Of a stretch of 53,003 nt of DNA, positions 1,409-49,528 are shown piece after piece. Every line of letters begins with the position of its first letter. The stretch's first letter is position 1. The DNA lies in IMG/VR virus record IMGVR_UViG_3300030101_003060, positions 1-53,003 of that record; one strand, given 5' to 3'. Both the position numbers and the translations under genes were made by a program. The DNA comes from a virus. The notes beneath the pieces are model-generated. The model did not search any database. It was not told the DNA's origin and was given only the letters and a program-made list of their open reading frames with translations.

Positions 1409-1541
1409 GACGGAGAGAACCAATTAGACTAATACACCTACAGAGATAGACATACCCGTGGATAGATAGGGGGTAGGGTGGCCCCTAGGTGGCTGATCTG
1501 GTAGTAGGAGAAAGACCCCTGCCCTATCAAAATTCCTTGGC

Positions 1542-1785
1542 TGGTACGTTTGGTACAGGTCTGGTACGCCGCAAATCGGCCTTCTTGCCCCCTATACCGG
1601 CGTTTTGTACCGCACGTACCACATGTGCCATACCGCACGCAATTACTACCTACCCTTTATACCCCACTAGATCTCTCTAAGTATGGTACATATGGTACAA
1701 AGTGGTGTAAAGTGTTGTGTGTAAAGAGGTTAGGGGTGTACCACACCCACCCACTGGCATGGTACACCCCTGGTACGTCTGGTAC
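1542..1785. repeat. TGGTAC iteron-like array, candidate replication origin
   Basis: The hexamer TGGTAC occurs at 1542, 1551, 1562, 1684, 1693, 1760, 1771 and 1780 on the plus strand and at 1616 and 1738 in the opposite orientation: ten exact copies in 244 bp, where about 0.1 is expected by chance. Within clusters the spacing is 9 or 11 bp, about one helical turn, giving triplets with steps 9+11 and 11+9. The surrounding 1409-1789 stretch has no convincing gene. It directly follows the stop of the D5-family helicase gene. Iterons beside an initiator/helicase gene are typical of origins; the origin role here is inference. Confidence 0.7.
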
Positions 1786-1789
1786 GCAC

Positions 1790-3178
1790 CTAGCCCTTAA
1801 GGCTCAAACCCCGCAACCCGCGTTTGCCTCCCCCGCCAATCCGGGTCCTCCGCAGGTCCCAAGTCGTTTCTTGCACCAACTTGTAGACCAACTGGTTCTG
1901 GCTAAGTGGGGGGACACGGAGGCCCTTGCTCCATTCTTTCCAATGATAGAACAAGACCTCGGAACTGACGAATCCAGCGTCCTTAACTTCAAACCGAGAA
2001 GCCAGAAACTCGTCAATCGGGTTGTTGACGGTGTGGTATTCCTCGATCAAGACGTTGGAGTTTTCTGGCATCGGGAACTTCTTCTTTGGGTCCTTCTCTT
2101 CTTCAAGAGTCTTGGCCCCCTGCCAAGCCCAATACGCAATACCGGGCAACTCTTCCAACAACTGCTCTGCAAGTCGATAGTTCTCTCGACCCACAAAGCT
2201 CACCGTAAAGGGTAGAAGTACCATCTTCCCTGACAGCCCAAGCCCCTTGTTGGGAAGCCGGGGGATTTCATTGGACTGCATGACTGGGACGGCTTCCACG
2301 ACCACGTTCCTAAGTGGCTGCTCGAACTTCCGGTTGATGGAGATGGGGTCTTTCCCCACAATCGACTTGATGACTCGACATGCGGCTTCTCCCTCACGAT
2401 TTGAAATTTCCGATACTTCATTAATTGCCATCACCTTTGCCTGCTCAATGCCCCAAAGCCCGAACTGACCAGCGATATCCTCCAGACAAGTACCCATATA
2501 GCCCTCACCAAGGAGAGCCTTCAACACGGACATGATAGTGCCCTTGCCGCCACGAATCTTACCGTACATCAAAAACCACTTTGCGTAGTCCCGATGAGGC
2601 AATAGGCAATACCCAAACATTCGCTGGAGTAGTTTGACCCAATCAGAATCTCCCCCGCTCCACTCCTTCAAACAACGATGCCAGATTGGGCATGTCGCTG
2701 AAGGGTCAAAGCTCACGGGAAGAACATGAGGATCGAAGAAGGTTTCATCTCGCTTGTACTTCATTCCCGTATTGGCATCCATCACCAGATCTTGGAATGA
2801 AATAAGGCTTCGGCATTCCTTGGTCTGGGGAGCCGTCAGCCACACGGGACTCTTTTCATGGGGCAATGTCTGCAAAGCCTGTAAGGCTCTCAGGACCCCT
2901 CTCACCTTCTCGATGGTGGGACCATACCTGACAGACCTCTGGCCGTTCTGGGTCGCTTGCTGGAACGATACGTTCTCCAAAGCAACCCACAAAGCACTTT
3001 CAACCCACTCAATATCGCGGGTTTGCCACTTTTCTCCATACCACTCGTAAAAATTTCCTCTCCAATACCATAATCCGTTTCGATTATTAGGAGTGGAAAA
3101 CCTTGTGTTCAGCAGGTATCGTGCAACCTGCATAGGTTCGGGGGACACCAAGGTGGGTGTTTGTGTCCGGTTAGTCAT
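1790..3178 (-). CDS. D5/P4-family replicative helicase (helicase part of phage primase-helicase)
   Basis: A 462-residue SF3-type ATPase. Walker A GKIRGGKGT is at about 206-214, Walker B KVMAINEVSE at about 248-257, and a sensor-like SNE near 302-304. The C-terminal third looks like the winged-helix tail of the phage/plasmid P4-type primase C-terminal family. The N-terminal 150 residues resemble a D5_N region; I see no zinc finger and no archaeo-eukaryotic primase active site, so this looks like helicase without primase. Expected role: origin melting and fork unwinding as a hexamer. GGAG ten bases upstream supports the start. It is divergent from the virion block by 52 bp and ends 4 bp from the TGGTAC array, which it may bind. 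Confidence 0.85.
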   Translation of the reverse strand: MTNRTQTPTLVSPEPMQVARYLLNTRFSTPNNRNGLWYWRGNFYEWYGEKWQTRDIEWVESALWVALENVSFQQATQNGQRSVRYGPTIEKVRGVLRALQALQTLPHEKSPVWLTAPQTKECRSLISFQDLVMDANTGMKYKRDETFFDPHVLPVSFDPSATCPIWHRCLKEWSGGDSDWVKLLQRMFGYCLLPHRDYAKWFLMYGKIRGGKGTIMSVLKALLGEGYMGTCLEDIAGQFGLWGIEQAKVMAINEVSEISNREGEAACRVIKSIVGKDPISINRKFEQPLRNVVVEAVPVMQSNEIPRLPNKGLGLSGKMVLLPFTVSFVGRENYRLAEQLLEELPGIAYWAWQGAKTLEEEKDPKKKFPMPENSNVLIEEYHTVNNPIDEFLASRFEVKDAGFVSSEVLFYHWKEWSKGLRVPPLSQNQLVYKLVQETTWDLRRTRIGGGGKRGLRGLSLKG

Positions 3179-3230: not shown

Positions 3231-4541
3231 ATGGCAAAGAAACGCCAAGAAGAAAATGAACGGAAGACGGAAGAAGAAAACGCCGCAGGACCTCCAAAGC
3301 AGGAAGCGATTACCCCTGAAGGTACCAGCCCCAATACCAGAAATCCCTTGGCGGATTATGCCGCCTTTATGCGGATGATGGGGCAACAAAACGCCAACAC
3401 CCGTCGATATGAGAGTGTACTCGAAGCGACTCGACGCGCCAACCAAATGATCAATCTTCCACGAGATCCGGTCAAAACAAAAAGAATTGATGATCGTCGT
3501 CGTGCCATGAATGTTTCAGAACATCATGGCAGAAGCCAGTTTATGAAAGATCGGGATGAACGAGTCCGTGAACAAATTTTCATGGACAATCTCGACAAAA
3601 TGGTTGAGAGGAATTGGAGGCGAAGCCAAAGAGATTCCGATGAATCTCTGGACGATCTGAGCCATGAAGAAGTTACGGCAATGATGGAGAGAGCAAAAGC
3701 AAGAGATGCTCAGATGACAGAGGAAGGTCGGGTAATTCGAGGAACACTCCCCGAACACTCTCCCGAGGAAACCGGACCTGAGATGACTCATCCGCCTCAT
3801 TACTCTCCTCCTCCAGTAATGGATCATCCTCCTTACTACGCTCCTCCGACAAACGAAATTCCTCCCGGCATGGAGGCAAACCCTCTTGAACAACTTCATG
3901 GACCCCCAGAAGAAGCACCGCCTTTTACTCTTTACCCTTACCCATCATTTGAAGATTCAACTGTCTTTGACGACACGGACTCTCCTCCCGTGGGCACAGA
4001 GTATGACACCACCCCTGAACCAATGTATGGGTATATGAATCCAAATGTCCATCAACCCCCTCTTGATGCGTCATTTGCTCCTCCTCCGTTCAACCCCATG
4101 GCGGACTTTTATGGTATGAGCAATACCATTGGAGGAATGGCTCAACAAGGACTTGCTGAAGCAGAACAGTTTGCCGGAAGACTTGCAGGACAACAAACAC
4201 ATGGGCAGGGATATCCGCAGATGGCGGCTGATTGGATGGCCCAAAACAACCCCATGCACAACCTCAAGCTCCAAAGTGACATACTGAAACTAAGAGCAAA
4301 GAACCTTAAGGAAATTCACGACGAGGCGGCGCACACAGGTCCAAATGTCATGTACCGGCATTGGCGGGACAATGTTTACGATCCCCGAACCGGAACTCCT
4401 CAAAGAGGTTTTGCTCGTCCGATGACTCATCCGCCTGCTCCTCCGGTACCTACATACGCCCCTCCCACGAATGAAATTCCTCCGGGAATGACTGCACCAG
4501 AAGTTTATCGAAGGCTTCACCCACCAATCCACACTCGATAA
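3231..4541 (+). CDS. Pro-rich, largely disordered protein with internal repeat
   Basis: 436 residues. The N-terminal third is highly charged and helical (Lys/Arg/Glu). The middle and C-terminus are rich in Pro, Met and Tyr. The 12-residue element YAPPTNEIPPGM occurs twice (203-214 and 409-420), each time preceded by a MTHPP-type element, so the two segments probably arose by duplication. It is the first gene of the late block. Disordered Pro-rich proteins at this place could be capsid-associated, scaffolding or ejected proteins; none is recognised. Only a weak SD (CAGGGA) is seen. Confidence 0.65.
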   Translation: MAKKRQEENERKTEEENAAGPPKQEAITPEGTSPNTRNPLADYAAFMRMMGQQNANTRRYESVLEATRRANQMINLPRDPVKTKRIDDRRRAMNVSEHHGRSQFMKDRDERVREQIFMDNLDKMVERNWRRSQRDSDESLDDLSHEEVTAMMERAKARDAQMTEEGRVIRGTLPEHSPEETGPEMTHPPHYSPPPVMDHPPYYAPPTNEIPPGMEANPLEQLHGPPEEAPPFTLYPYPSFEDSTVFDDTDSPPVGTEYDTTPEPMYGYMNPNVHQPPLDASFAPPPFNPMADFYGMSNTIGGMAQQGLAEAEQFAGRLAGQQTHGQGYPQMAADWMAQNNPMHNLKLQSDILKLRAKNLKEIHDEAAHTGPNVMYRHWRDNVYDPRTGTPQRGFARPMTHPPAPPVPTYAPPTNEIPPGMTAPEVYRRLHPPIHTR

Positions 4542-4554
4542 GTAGGAGGTTGCA

Positions 4555-6279
4555 ATGGCAAAAAGTCCCCGTCGAAAATTGCAGATAGGCCCCATTAAAA
4601 GAGCTTCTACTTCCGGTCTTTTCGGAGGGGACATGGAGCGTCTTGGTCTGGGGATGCCCGAGCTTGATCCTTTGGAAAGACTTAAGGCTGTCTTGGCGAA
4701 AACAAGCCCTAAAGGCCAAGTCACGGGTTTTGCGTCAGGCATTGAAGTTGAAGAAGCCATTGAGCATTGGCTTAAGGGTCAACCCCGTGACGTTCAAACT
4801 CAAGTAAGACGTTTTCTTCGACAGCAAGAAATTGCCAATCGACAACAAACAGAACTCACCAAGGCTTTTTCTGAAAGCGTAAAGCGTAAGGGGGGGACTA
4901 AAACCCAAGCAGGGCTTCTTGACGTTGATTCTGGGTTTGATTCAAGAGAGGCTGAAATTCGTCGTGCCATGCAGGAGTTTAATCTCCGAGAAGACGACGT
5001 TGCAAAAATGACGCAAGATCATGTTGATGATCTTATGAAGACTCGTCGTAGCCCAGCAGTTGCAAGGGCTATGGCAGATGAGATTTCAGAGCAGTACAAA
5101 GAACAAAGGAAGAGGGATGCAAAAGGTCTAGGAGGTCCAAGCCCTACCGAAGGTAGCGTACAAACCCCAGACGACCTTATGTTTGATGTCCGTAGGCCAG
5201 AATCTAAAGCCGCAAGAGAAGCCGCTTTAGGTAGGGGTCTTACTGATAGAGAACTTGCTCAAAAGTTAAGGGCCAACAACGCTTTTGTGATTAAGAGCCA
5301 CGGCCAAGAATTTCAGTTTAGCCCCACTAAAGCAGGCAAGTGGCGAATTACCCGCAACCGACTCGTCAATGTAGGCAAGGGAAAGTTTAGTCTTGAGCCT
5401 TCAAGTTGGACACAGGGAAGTGTTGAGCAATTTATTAAGGCTCTCCCATGGGGTAAGGCGGATAAAGACAAAGTAGAAGCGGTCAAGAACCATATTAGGT
5501 CAAAACTTCTTTCTCCTAACCCTAAAGGCCGACCTGCTACTGGACCCCAATTTGGTTTTGAAATCAAGAACTCCACTTTGTTGGGGGGTAAAGACCCACT
5601 TAAAAAGAATTTGGGTTTTGCTACTCTTGACGAAAAAACGAAAGCCAAGAAAAAAGCGGGGGTGGATAAGAAGATTCCGGGACGGCCTGTTCGCAGAGCA
5701 ATGACAAACAAGGTCATTAAAACTTTCCACGAAGCGCCTCACACAGATGGGACTATGAGGACATTCCTTCATCACCCCGCAGTAAATGACCTTAAGGGGA
5801 ATAGAACATATTTCCGAACAGACGGAAGCCTTACTCCAGCAGGCATGAAGAAGTACAAGGATCTTTTCTTCGTTTCTGTTATGGATCCCGCAAGACTGGC
5901 TCAATCCAAAGCCTTCCACAAGAAACAAAAGGCTAAAGCCATTGCAGATGTAGACAAGGTTGAAGTTGTTACGATGCAGGACGAGCCTAAGACTCGAAAA
6001 GCAAGCATGAGGGAAATCAATAAGGCTGCGGAACTTGCCAAAACCCCTCCGTCCCCACTTCCAATAGAACACCCTCTTAGGCGTACAGGTCCGGAAAAAG
6101 AAGTTCGACGTGCAAGGCACATGCTTAAGACTGAGCCTCGGAAAGTTTTGAATCGCCCAGAAGTTCGTAGCTTTATTCAGAAGGCTCTTCGCAGGGGAGG
6201 ACCGATGGCCCTTATCGCTCTTGCTTTGCTTACGGGCGGAGGTATGATGTTTGCAGGATCACAAAATGAAGCAGCCTGA
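4555..6279 (+). CDS. Hypothetical basic protein with C-terminal membrane segment
   Basis: 574 residues, strongly basic, with a strong SD (AGGAGG) before ATG 4555. The body is charged, partly helical, with Lys/Arg-rich linkers. The last 25 residues hold a hydrophobic stretch (PMALIALALLTGGGMMFAG) that could span a membrane. A basic soluble part with one C-terminal hydrophobic segment also occurs in the proteins at 16157 and 30693 of this window. The order suggests an internal or ejected virion protein, but I recognise no family. The 3' end overlaps the next gene by 14 nt. Confidence 0.6.
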   Translation: MAKSPRRKLQIGPIKRASTSGLFGGDMERLGLGMPELDPLERLKAVLAKTSPKGQVTGFASGIEVEEAIEHWLKGQPRDVQTQVRRFLRQQEIANRQQTELTKAFSESVKRKGGTKTQAGLLDVDSGFDSREAEIRRAMQEFNLREDDVAKMTQDHVDDLMKTRRSPAVARAMADEISEQYKEQRKRDAKGLGGPSPTEGSVQTPDDLMFDVRRPESKAAREAALGRGLTDRELAQKLRANNAFVIKSHGQEFQFSPTKAGKWRITRNRLVNVGKGKFSLEPSSWTQGSVEQFIKALPWGKADKDKVEAVKNHIRSKLLSPNPKGRPATGPQFGFEIKNSTLLGGKDPLKKNLGFATLDEKTKAKKKAGVDKKIPGRPVRRAMTNKVIKTFHEAPHTDGTMRTFLHHPAVNDLKGNRTYFRTDGSLTPAGMKKYKDLFFVSVMDPARLAQSKAFHKKQKAKAIADVDKVEVVTMQDEPKTRKASMREINKAAELAKTPPSPLPIEHPLRRTGPEKEVRRARHMLKTEPRKVLNRPEVRSFIQKALRRGGPMALIALALLTGGGMMFAGSQNEAA

Positions 6280-14726: not shown

Positions 14727-15389
14727 ATGCCAAAAGAAGGAAGCCAAGAATTGGAGAACCGGCGGCAAGAAGAAAAAGAAGTAGGGTCTCCGAAATGGAG
14801 ATTAAAGGTAGTTGCTGAACTCAAGCAATGGAGTAAGCAAGTGCTGGAACGACCTTCAGACCACTACAACGGTCTGCCTCCTTGTCCTTTTGCCCGTAAG
14901 GCTTGGCTCGACAACAAGGTCAAGATTGACTTTGGTAGCAAGAAAGAAATCATTAAAAACTGCATCAACTGGAATGACGACATTGAACTGTTGATTGTCG
15001 TTGTAGAGGACCCCAAGTGGGGAGATATTGATGATTGGTGCGAAGTCGAAAACGATCAACTGTCAAATGATAATTTGACGCTTATGGCTTTCTGCCATGA
15101 GGGCGATGCGGTTCCTCCGGGTCAGCCAGAAGAAGAATTGGAAGATTGGGATCATCTGATTGATGAGCCTTATTCCATGGTATTTATTCAAAGGCTTTCA
15201 ACCGTAAACGCTGCCAGCGAAAAGTTGGAGCGCCAAGGTTACTACAAGAACTGCACGGCGGAGTTCTTGGAGTATGTTACTGACCGTCGTGAAAGGCAAC
15301 ACAATGGCAGGTATGCGAAACGGAATGGGCAAGGGCAAGAAAAAGGTCATGGGCAAGAAGAAGGCTGCAAAGAAGCCCGCATTTCTTAA
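14727..15389 (+). CDS. Hypothetical acidic protein
   Basis: 220 residues from ATG 14727; no strong SD, and TTG 14721 is an alternative. A compact alpha/beta domain (residues about 25-190) contains PPCPFARKAW, then a strongly acidic segment. The PCPFARKAW element reminds me of a recurrent uncharacterised phage protein, but I cannot name the family. The last ~28 residues overlap, in another frame, the start of the Lys-rich mini-protein at 15304, which explains their odd Gln/Gly/Lys composition. Confidence 0.6.
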   Translation: MPKEGSQELENRRQEEKEVGSPKWRLKVVAELKQWSKQVLERPSDHYNGLPPCPFARKAWLDNKVKIDFGSKKEIIKNCINWNDDIELLIVVVEDPKWGDIDDWCEVENDQLSNDNLTLMAFCHEGDAVPPGQPEEELEDWDHLIDEPYSMVFIQRLSTVNAASEKLERQGYYKNCTAEFLEYVTDRRERQHNGRYAKRNGQGQEKGHGQEEGCKEARIS

Positions 15390-15672: not shown

Positions 15673-15831
15673 ATGGCTAAGAAGAAGTCAGGCGGCAAGA
15701 AGGATGCTTGCTACCACAAGGTCAAGAGCCGCTACAAGAAGTGGCCTTCTGCTTACGCTAGTGGTGCCCTCGTCAAGTGCCGTAAGAAAGGTGCCAAGAA
15801 TTGGGGCACTGGAGGTAAGAAGAAGAAGTGA
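15673..15831 (+). CDS. Small basic Cys-containing protein, 52 residues
   Basis: Starts at ATG 15673, one base after the previous stop. The sequence has a Lys-rich head and tail around a conserved-looking core, DACYHKVKSRYKKWPSAYAS followed by GALVKCRKKG. I recall this YxxWPSAYASGALVKCR core from other phage and virus small proteins of unknown function. Two Cys and one His might coordinate metal or form a disulfide. Third member of the basic cluster. Confidence 0.7.
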   Translation: MAKKKSGGKKDACYHKVKSRYKKWPSAYASGALVKCRKKGAKNWGTGGKKKK

Positions 15832-46569: not shown

Positions 46570-47074
46570 GGGTCAATGATCCATTTACGAGAAGTCTCGC
46601 CACCCATTCTCCGACTGCTCGCCGTGCTGTGGTGGTCGATGAAGGTAGGAGGATGAGAGGCACCTGCCTCTCGAAGAGTATCCTTTGAAAAGAATCTAAA
46701 GCTAGACCCGGATTCTCCACATATTTCGTGGGTCTTTGCAGATCTATGGGGCTTCCTTCCAGTAGGAGGAAGGGCTTCTGACATTCAGATTTCAGGCGGT
46801 CGATCTGAGATATGAATCGTCGGCAGCCATCTTTTCGCAGGCAGTATCCTGCCACTTCTCGTAGGGATCCCTTACGCTCCACGAGGACGTTGTCTTCGTA
46901 GCCAAGGAGGCAGTAGTCACCTGTCTTGAGGGGATGTGTCTCCGTCCGTATACGGACCCGTGTGGGCTTCCTGTGCCACGGCGGCTTTGCGTCATCCAAG
47001 AACGACAGCGTTTCGGGGAAGATCAGAGGCTTCTTTTCCCGTGAGTCTTGGAGGATGACGAACTCTTTCTTCAG
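46547..47074 (-). CDS. ERCC4-type nuclease, apparent CTG start
   Basis: 175 residues if read from CTG 47074. The core has VILQDSREKKPL (Asp10, Glu13), TGDYCLLGYEDNVLVERKGS (Asp53, Glu66, Arg67, Lys68) and a following helix (RRFISQIDRL), the GDxn-ERKxxx(D) layout of XPF/ERCC4 nucleases, which cut branched DNA. The only ATG/GTG/TTG-type start (TTG 46999) would remove the QDSRE motif. An in-frame stop precedes the CTG. GAGG lies 7 nt before CTG, and CTG overlaps the polymerase TGA (CTGA) in the way ATGA overlaps occur elsewhere here. Confidence 0.75.
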   Translation of the reverse strand: MKKEFVILQDSREKKPLIFPETLSFLDDAKPPWHRKPTRVRIRTETHPLKTGDYCLLGYEDNVLVERKGSLREVAGYCLRKDGCRRFISQIDRLKSECQKPFLLLEGSPIDLQRPTKYVENPGLALDSFQRILFERQVPLILLPSSTTTARRAVGEWVARLLVNGSLTHGMEDHD

Positions 47075-49218
47075 TCGAGAACCTCAAGGTCGTGCTTTAG
47101 GGTGACTTCTCTGCCGTAGTGCCATTGGAGATCGGCCCAATAGCCCTCATCTATAACCTCTTTTACTGCGGTGTCTACTGCATTTCTTGCAGATTCCTCC
47201 ATATTTTCTGGACAATCTATGTAGATAGCGTCGTAGATCTGCAAGAACATCAGGCATTTGGGGTCAAGATTACGCATAAGCCTGTGCTGGATGGCAAGAG
47301 TTAGGTTGCCTGCCGTGGTTTGGACAGGGAAGTTCACGATTTCTGAGCGTGACTTACCAATATCTCCGAAGAAGGTACGAGATTGTCCGGTCAAGGGTAG
47401 AAGAATCCGGTGTTGCACCTTGGCTTTGTGGAGTAGGGACCTCTGCCATTTGGTAAGGGTGGGCCGAACTGATGCCCTCAGTGCCACAACATCCTGATAG
47501 AACTCCAGGGGTAGGTCGATATCACCTGAGCTTTGGGCATATACCTGTTCCTTCATGGTATTGGCAGAGGAGAGGAATAGGTCAGCGAAGTTCATCATCT
47601 TGCCGACCTGCCTACGTTGGTGTTGGGAGTCTGGCAGTTCGTCGTAGTCCTCCCATAGTGTGCGTGCCCTCTCTGCATGGAGGTCCCGCCCTTCGTTGTA
47701 TGCAGAGATCATGGACTTTTCGCCTGACAGTAGAGCAGCAACCCTGAGTTCTGCTTGAGACAGGTCCATTGCAAGGATGGTTCCTCTTGAAAACCTAGAC
47801 CGTATGCACTTCTTGATTGGCTTTGGGAAGGTCTGTGCTGACGGTTGCTTGCATGTGATGCGGCCTTGGATGGTGCCGCCTGCCGAGCCAGTATCGTTCT
47901 TGATATGGCTGGGAGTTACATACCATGTGGGATAGGCGATGGAGTCTGCCAGTCTTGATGATCGTAGTGATCCGAAGCGAGCGTCTGCCTGCAACTTCTT
48001 GACGACCGGATCTTCCTTCATGTCGGCAGCATCCACTCGCTCTGCTGGCGTGTGGTAAAGCGTTATCTCTTCAGGACTTGCAGACGTTGCGTATGGACCA
48101 CACAAGTTCTTGTTGGTAGGGATAATGATGGAAGACATATCCTCTGGCTTGTTACGTCGGTGGTAAAGGAGAGGATAGCAGTAGGAGGAGATTAGTTTTA
48201 GTGCTTCGGAGTGAGTGTTGGCTAGTTCGAGCGCGTGTTGGTATCCGGCTGTGTCGTCTACCTGACTCAGTTCTTCCAGCAGGGTGGTCCTGTTCTTCTT
48301 GGTGAAGGACACCTTCTTGGTCTTGGGCGTGACATCCATACGATCAAGGATGTCGGGGTTGGATGTCTGTGCAATGAGGGTGATGACTTCATCGAGGAAC
48401 TCATCCTTGGAGGTAGCAGAGCCGGGTCCTTGGAGGATGAGGTCTTGATCTTTCGCCAACTCGATTGCTTCGCCTGAAGTCTTGGAGCATTGCTCGTGCA
48501 ACGATTGCAATCGTTTCGACGACATGGGCACACCATTCTCCGACATCATAATAGTGGCCCAGATGCTATCACTGTAGAAGCGGAGACAGTAGAAGCCATA
48601 GTTGTCGTCCTTGAACTTCTCGTTTAGAAGGCGACGTGACAGTTCTGCTATTGCAAGCAGGGTGTTGTGTGTGTCCTGAGCGTTGTAATCGTGGAGTTTC
48701 TCGTCGGTCGAACGTCGGAACCGTGTCGTCGCCAGTGTCTCTGAGTAGGCATGGGTGCCGAGGACTGGACCCAAGGCTTTGAGGCTACGCTCTTCCCGTA
48801 GTTCAGAGTGAAGGTAATTGAGGACTGAGAGATCGACAAGAGTTTTAGTGGGGGGAATATCAAACCCCACATACCGTAGGTATTGAAGGTCGAACTGTAG
48901 GTTCATGCCGAGGATTGTGTCGGCATGGTCAAGCCAGTCTTGCAGTTGTTGTCGTTGCTCAGGGATATGGAGTTGAAAAACAAAGGTTTCTCCTGGCTCC
49001 ATGTATGACAGTTGTTGGAAGTCTATGTTGACGGCGTGGATGTTGGGGACAGTAATTGCCACCGTCAAAACCATGTCGTCGTCTTTCACTCTGTCAATGT
49101 AGCTTGACTTCTGTGGGTGGAAAACGGTTTGCTTGGGAAGGAAAACGCCAAGATGATTTGTCTTGGCGGCACCGTAGGTTTCGATGTCAAGGCTGATGAT
49201 GTTGCTGTCATTCGTCAT
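47071..49218 (-). CDS. polA: DNA polymerase I family (family A) with 3'-5' exonuclease
   Basis: 715 residues from ATG 49218. Exonuclease: LDIET (Asp11, Glu13), NLQFD (Asp110), YNAQD (Tyr178, Asp182), all proofreading residues present. Polymerase motif A MDLSQAELR (Asp485, Glu490); motif B RRQVGKMMNF with Arg536, Lys540 and Phe544 (equivalent of E. coli Phe762); motif C QIYDAIYID keeps Asp663 but has Tyr and Ala where family A usually has His and Glu (HDE). No 5'-3' exonuclease domain. This is the replicative polymerase. AAGGAAAG upstream; start overlaps the preceding gene by 11 nt. Confidence 0.95.
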   Translation of the reverse strand: MTNDSNIISLDIETYGAAKTNHLGVFLPKQTVFHPQKSSYIDRVKDDDMVLTVAITVPNIHAVNIDFQQLSYMEPGETFVFQLHIPEQRQQLQDWLDHADTILGMNLQFDLQYLRYVGFDIPPTKTLVDLSVLNYLHSELREERSLKALGPVLGTHAYSETLATTRFRRSTDEKLHDYNAQDTHNTLLAIAELSRRLLNEKFKDDNYGFYCLRFYSDSIWATIMMSENGVPMSSKRLQSLHEQCSKTSGEAIELAKDQDLILQGPGSATSKDEFLDEVITLIAQTSNPDILDRMDVTPKTKKVSFTKKNRTTLLEELSQVDDTAGYQHALELANTHSEALKLISSYCYPLLYHRRNKPEDMSSIIIPTNKNLCGPYATSASPEEITLYHTPAERVDAADMKEDPVVKKLQADARFGSLRSSRLADSIAYPTWYVTPSHIKNDTGSAGGTIQGRITCKQPSAQTFPKPIKKCIRSRFSRGTILAMDLSQAELRVAALLSGEKSMISAYNEGRDLHAERARTLWEDYDELPDSQHQRRQVGKMMNFADLFLSSANTMKEQVYAQSSGDIDLPLEFYQDVVALRASVRPTLTKWQRSLLHKAKVQHRILLPLTGQSRTFFGDIGKSRSEIVNFPVQTTAGNLTLAIQHRLMRNLDPKCLMFLQIYDAIYIDCPENMEESARNAVDTAVKEVIDEGYWADLQWHYGREVTLKHDLEVLD

Positions 49219-49528
49219 CTCCAAGGACTTTCCTTTCCTGATCCATGTCAACCTGATGATTGACTTCGTAGGCTTCGGCGGTGTCATGGATTTCTTCACG
49301 GATACCAGATTCATTTTCCATGATCATCTGTTCACCGTAAGTTTCAATCATGGCATTAAACTGTGAGGCGAGTTCGTCCTTCTTGACCTCTGCGCCTACA
49401 ACCTCAACATTACCATCCACGATCTGGAAATCAATACTTGCGTCCACATCTTCGTATTGAGATTCTATCTCTTCCCCGTCAACAAACATAGTGAAACCAA
49501 TTTTGATTGTCTTGGTGATGTAGTCCAT
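49208..49528 (-). CDS. Hypothetical acidic protein, 106 residues
   Basis: ATG 49528 overlaps the previous stop (TGATG), AGGA upstream. N-terminal beta-rich half (KTIKIGFTMFVDGEEIESQY ... SIDFQIVDGN), then acidic helices. Directly upstream of polymerase, overlapping by 11 nt. May be a polymerase accessory, but no family is recognised. Confidence 0.55.
   Translation of the reverse strand: MDYITKTIKIGFTMFVDGEEIESQYEDVDASIDFQIVDGNVEVVGAEVKKDELASQFNAMIETYGEQMIMENESGIREEIHDTAEAYEVNHQVDMDQERKVLGDDE

Follow-up and report, generated by a model that had tools for sequence, protein, structure and literature searches.

The stretch of viral DNA analysed here (the window) is a complete IMG/VR record of 53,003 bp. 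It carries a gene for a D5/SF3-type helicase on the minus strand, and the stop codon of this gene (1790-1792) is followed by an array of short repeats. The locus comprises the following features, in order of position.

1505-1534, minus strand: conserved element, AATTTTGATA(c/g)GGgaNGGNCTTTCT, present in 13 of 13 closer sequences, 210-282 bp past the helicase stop
1542-1567, plus strand: outer iteron triplet on the far side, TGGTAC at 1542, 1551 and 1562, 9+11 steps
1607-1630, minus strand: inner iteron triplet, the other arm of the core dyad, GTACCG at 1607, GTACCA at 1616 and GTGCCA at 1625, 9-bp steps, two sites degenerate
1631-1683, no strand: array centre, proposed unwinding element, 43% GC
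1684-1698, plus strand: inner iteron pair, arm of the core dyad, 9-bp step
1738-1743, minus strand: lone iteron in reversed orientation, an orientation conserved among relatives
1760-1785, plus strand: outer iteron triplet by the helicase stop, TGGTAC at 1760, 1771 and 1780, 11+9 steps
1790-3178, minus strand: D5/SF3-type helicase, proposed initiator, 462 aa
1793-2020, minus strand: predicted C-terminal winged-helix domain (CTD), RFX-like and similar to the P4 origin-binding domain, residues 387-462
1823-1834, minus strand: codons of wing residues 449-452 (GGGK), the sole helicase columns that separate the iteron classes

Terminase and other late genes occupy the plus strand from 3231. No terminal repeats were found in the window. 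A few kb past the helicase segment, four relatives (L004, L005, L008 and L009) contain matches to window positions 50.7-47.5 kb; relatives thus join both ends of the window, and the linear record therefore resembles a permuted circle or a terminally redundant genome. The helicase would be the first gene of a long early region on the minus strand, extending through position 1 to 53003 and from there to ~37.9 kb. This region also contains the genes for a family A polymerase (47071-49314), a Sak4-like protein and a PD-(D/E)XK nuclease, as well as one of the UDG family. Two further features of the window were recorded. A strong hairpin resembling an intrinsic terminator lies at 1055-1078 on the minus strand (GGGGGGTACC-TTCG-GGTACTCCCC followed by TTTTTT), overlapped by a sub-threshold Rfam match to sbrA (E 0.0014), and lysine-rich coding repeats of 51 nt, 78% alike, occur in neighbouring small ORFs at 14728-14778 and 15778-15828.

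The hexamer TGGTAC occurs exactly ten times within 1542-1785, with eight copies on the plus strand and two on the minus strand (1542, 1551, 1562, 1616(-), 1684, 1693, 1738(-), 1760, 1771 and 1780). The steps are 9+11 bp over 1542-1562, 11+9 bp over 1760-1780 and 9 bp between 1684 and 1693, and 4 bp separate the last copy from the helicase stop codon. Copy number, strands and steps agree exactly with a preliminary description of this DNA. When the 300-bp region was shuffled 1000 times with its dinucleotide content kept, ten copies were never reached (mean 0.8, maximum 5), and 2000 shuffles of the intergenic region yielded no 6-mer of any kind at ten copies. Elsewhere in the window there is no 6-mer of equal density, no TGGTAC pair in the 9/11-bp register, no second array and no second TGGTAC cluster; the register pairs are also confined to the array in the records of seven relatives, which may be incomplete. 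Scattered TGGTAC copies outside the array number 30, about twice the shuffle expectation of 16.7 for the whole window, and form no further clusters.

The exact sites of the preliminary description stand, but the full layout had been missed. Two degenerate sites in the 9-bp register, GTACCG at 1607-1612 and GTGCCA at 1625-1630, bring the total to twelve, arranged 6+6 around the centre at 1631-1683. This centre of ~55 bp has a GC content of 43% vs 50-56% in the flanks. The A/T-rich runs previously suggested as a possible unwinding element are thus modest in the window; some relatives show them more clearly. An origin peak in GC skew, proposed as a check, was not obtained: the skew shows neither a turning point nor an extreme at the array, and its cumulative extremes lie at ~13 kb and 50.5 kb.

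Inverted arms of 18 nt (83%) are present at 1604-1621 and 1684-1701, with 62 nt between them. These dimensions are near those of the origin of plasmid pRN1, a 100-bp stem-loop with a 21-nt stem and a 58-nt loop downstream of the primase-helicase gene (PMC4234260), so that an extruded hairpin, the structure suggested for pRN1, is one reading of the inverted core. Such a structure is very unlikely here, as the folding energy only slightly beats that of shuffles (z between -0.3 and -2.3 across nine sequences, with -0.9 for the window), the outer sites contribute no stem, and the hexamer sequence is conserved although a stem alone would not need it. A reading of the region as a structured RNA was rejected, with no Rfam match above the gathering score in 1000-2200 and core folding barely better than in shuffles.

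Viral contigs and genomes were scanned with profiles and with single proteins, which yielded near-duplicates as well as relatives. The latter comprise closer relatives (L003, L005, L008-L011, L024, L026-L028, L031 and L039; 64-89% identity) and a distant group (L063-L074; about 41-46% identity to L031). A search of related phages for the same spaced repeats beside D5 helicases had been recommended, and in 22 relatives the array indeed follows the D5-type helicase gene. Among relatives with readable downstream DNA the sole exception is L029, a still more distant sequence (37-39% identity) that has no such array and whose wing gives no clean alignment. Read on the helicase strand, the site orientations are kept as three minus, one plus, two minus, the centre, three plus and three minus. 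The spacing is also conserved, with a site-to-site distance across the centre of 58-63 bp in most relatives. One site is missing in L005 and L008, L024 and L039 depart from the layout, and the last triplet was not seen in the distant group. In one member of that group, L068, an ORF of ~190 aa (4235-4805) separates the helicase from the array, yet the array is intact, with the sites found in the sister sequences of L068. No comparable array was found in the five cultured phages with D5 helicases that were checked (L040-L044); the array is therefore not general to phage D5 helicases. In four of these phages the next gene lies within 20 bp of the helicase stop; in B8b, the fifth, the gap is 183 bp.

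Three side observations concern the same set of contigs. In L069-L074 the array is preceded by about three copies of GTTATYGG, which lie within ~100 bp after the helicase stop. The contigs of L002, L003, L006, L007 and L010 end at most 0.8 kb downstream of the helicase stop; the reason may be assembly forks in a region of hypervariable small genes, or some physical feature near the origin. The contig of L039 (PCCS01000007.1; 80% identity, TGGTAC array) is binned as a Myxococcales MAG, which may be a host hint or a binning error.

The helicase matches PHROG DNA primase families (down to 1.4e-51) and contains the Pfam domains D5_N and DUF5906, the latter being the helicase core; no Pfam match to a fused primase domain was found in the 462-aa protein. 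A profile match to the SaPI5 primase-helicase 7ola has an E value of 3.7e-15. The helicase model superimposes on SaPI5 Rep (7om0_D) with Z 15.0 and an rmsd of 7.1 over 335 residues, the AAA core being poorly modelled by AlphaFold. The C-terminal 87 residues, folded alone, gave an AlphaFold pLDDT of 86.9. The best fold match of this predicted domain is RFX1 on DNA (1dp7; Z 9.6, rmsd 2.5 over 74 residues, Foldseek E 1e-4), RFX5 is also among the best matches, and the origin-binding domain of phage P4 (1ka8) follows with Z 7.4 and an rmsd of 2.8 over 75 residues. The RFX1 chain 1dp7 is also the top PDB hit by sequence, a weak one (E 0.16). Among family members, Pfam Pox_D5 was matched in 13 of 13 CTDs (best 4.3e-6) and RFX_DNA_binding in 9 of 13 (best 0.003).

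Two close relatives, L005 and L008, at first seemed to have lost the array and kept the helicase gene, whose product is 78-80% identical to that of the window, a loss that the preliminary description had named as an argument against an origin. The region contains zero TGGTAC in either, and YGGTCR stands at the aligned places, in ten copies each (reached in 0 of 1000 shuffles). The array is thus present in another class. Across the family the array unit is either TGGTAC or T/CGGTCA/G, the latter as TGGTCA/G in the distant group; the classes are never mixed within one array, and YGGTCR is absent from the GGTAC-class arrays.

The helicase alignment covers 13 sequences of the GGTC class and 10 of the GGTAC class. 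Across the whole protein the two classes are separated by four columns and no others, and these four are contiguous, 449-452. The GGTAC class has G/K/N at column 449 vs D/E/S/T in the GGTC class, G vs E/K at 450, Gly vs Arg at 451 and A/K/N/S vs I/T at 452. The probability that four random columns among ~256 variable ones would be contiguous is ~1.4e-6, a figure that ignores the relatedness of the sequences. In the structural model of the winged helix, residues 449-452 are placed in the wing, flanked by the final two strands. RFX1 uses its wing, not its helix, to read the DNA major groove (PMC4333399).

The tree of the helicase body groups L008 with L009/L010, apart from L005, and places the distant group elsewhere. 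This topology needs three class changes, at least two of them by starred branches, and a single change is found in 0% of bootstrap trees. When the four wing columns are removed, the CTD groups L005 with L008 in just 2% of bootstrap trees. The likeness of this pair possibly reflects a short recombined segment (wing and array) or convergence; since the two may share one such segment, there are at most two to three independent switches of class. Because the wing codons adjoin the array, linkage alone could carry both together, but it does not explain the concerted change of all sites. A natural specificity code, in which the wing tip and above all residue 451 (Gly/Arg) sets TGGTAC vs TGGTCA/G iterons, has in our estimation an even chance of being real.

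The best-conserved non-coding block adjoining the array is the ~30-bp element AATTTTGATAcGGgaGGGGcCTTTCT at 1505-1534, with a GGGG block ~25-30 bp on; its version in the distant group reads AATTTTGGGA(c/g)GGG...CTTTC. A promoter, a priming site and a part of the origin are candidate roles. A stem in this element, with seven pairs and zero compensatory change, is not claimed. The array could also be an operator or enhancer for the early genes beyond it, bound by the helicase or by another phage protein, with TTTTGATA as the promoter. The array does lie between two same-strand genes, and in all closer relatives it is followed by the conserved block with a -35-like TTGATA. There is, however, no conserved recognisable -10, and a promoter scan gave 3 hits vs 2.1 in shuffles, no clear excess. 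The gene beyond the array, moreover, varies from its first codons among relatives while the array stays with the helicase, and specificity follows the helicase wing, so that the binder would still be the helicase. Regulation of the early genes as the function of the array is therefore unlikely.

Arrays of short direct and inverted repeats also occur in partition, packaging and recombination sites, and several small uncharacterised proteins are encoded close by. A partition or incompatibility (parS-like), packaging or recombination site for a different small DNA-binding protein is nevertheless extremely unlikely: the covariation implicates the helicase wing, it is the helicase and not one small gene that the array accompanies, and no partition gene was found among the proteins scanned, a subset of the ORFs. 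That the adjacent D5/P4-type helicase reads the repeats, as had been proposed from the outset, is well supported by the retention of the array, the modelled CTD fold and the covariation of wing and repeat, and recognition of the iterons by this protein can be strongly inferred.

Several known systems resemble the locus. The phage P4 alpha protein (ori1/crr) is likewise an SF3 helicase, and its origin-binding domain is a C-terminal winged helix of this fold. P4 has a different repeat sequence and a primase domain in alpha, and requires a second cis site, crr; the window shows no second array with the same repeats as a crr counterpart, and its helicase has no fused primase. The RFX1 DNA-binding domain (1dp7) is closest to the CTD in fold and its best, though weak, sequence match, but RFX1 is a eukaryotic transcription factor whereas the window helicase is a proposed initiator. 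SaPI Rep, of the Staphylococcus aureus pathogenicity islands, and SCCmec Cch2 each use the CTD to bind iterons that directly follow the gene encoding them (PMC7581432, which cites Ubeda 2007 for the SaPI origin); the SaPI5 structures are 7ola and 7om0. SaPI Rep is a D5/SF3 initiator with clear homology between its SaPI5 form and the window helicase. Its CTD recognises iterons directly 3' of the gene, and two hexamers are thought to bind; both properties would apply here. SaPI5 Rep has a primase domain that the window helicase lacks, the SaPI iteron sequence is another, and the present sequences are tailed-phage contigs. Cch2 is, like the window protein, a D5_N-kind helicase without a fused primase, and its isolated CTD binds short direct repeats that closely follow the gene; its putative origin has three AAGTG repeats vs the twelve two-sided hexamers found here (PMC7581432). 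The pRN1 origin also lies directly 3' of a gene for an SF3 helicase plus winged-helix protein and contains a ~100-bp inverted element, but pRN1 is an archaeal plasmid with a primase-helicase fusion and no recognised iteron array (PMC4234260). Speculatively, the pRN1 element might be another pair of inverted binding sites.

The array is probably the replication origin of the phage, or the initiator-binding part of it, bound by the adjacent D5/SF3 helicase via the RFX-like CTD. Its origin activity is a candidate function by analogy to SaPI Rep and SCCmec Cch2, and an initiator-helicase origin of that kind, with new iterons, is the best explanation of the locus. Each TGGTAC would be bound by a C-terminal winged-helix domain. 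The final two bases of the hexamer, which vary, would be read by the wing tip (449-452), and GGT by invariant residues. The six sites on each side may engage the six wings of one helicase hexamer, so that two hexamers would be gathered. As the innermost sites of the two sides are opposed, the hexamers could melt the AT-richer centre and depart as opposed helicases, after which the family A polymerase would presumably extend from primers.

No account of D5-helicase iteron origins in tailed phages was found among the freely available papers searched. For most uncultured phages the origins are unknown, and the approach can be used to look for them next to D5-type helicases in further metagenomic phages. 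The present locus offers an origin candidate with a likely reader, two natural classes and a four-residue difference that should account for them, which makes initiator-origin specificity testable. If the specificity code is true, initiator and origin would switch class jointly, and would thereby define incompatibility groups among related phages of the same host.
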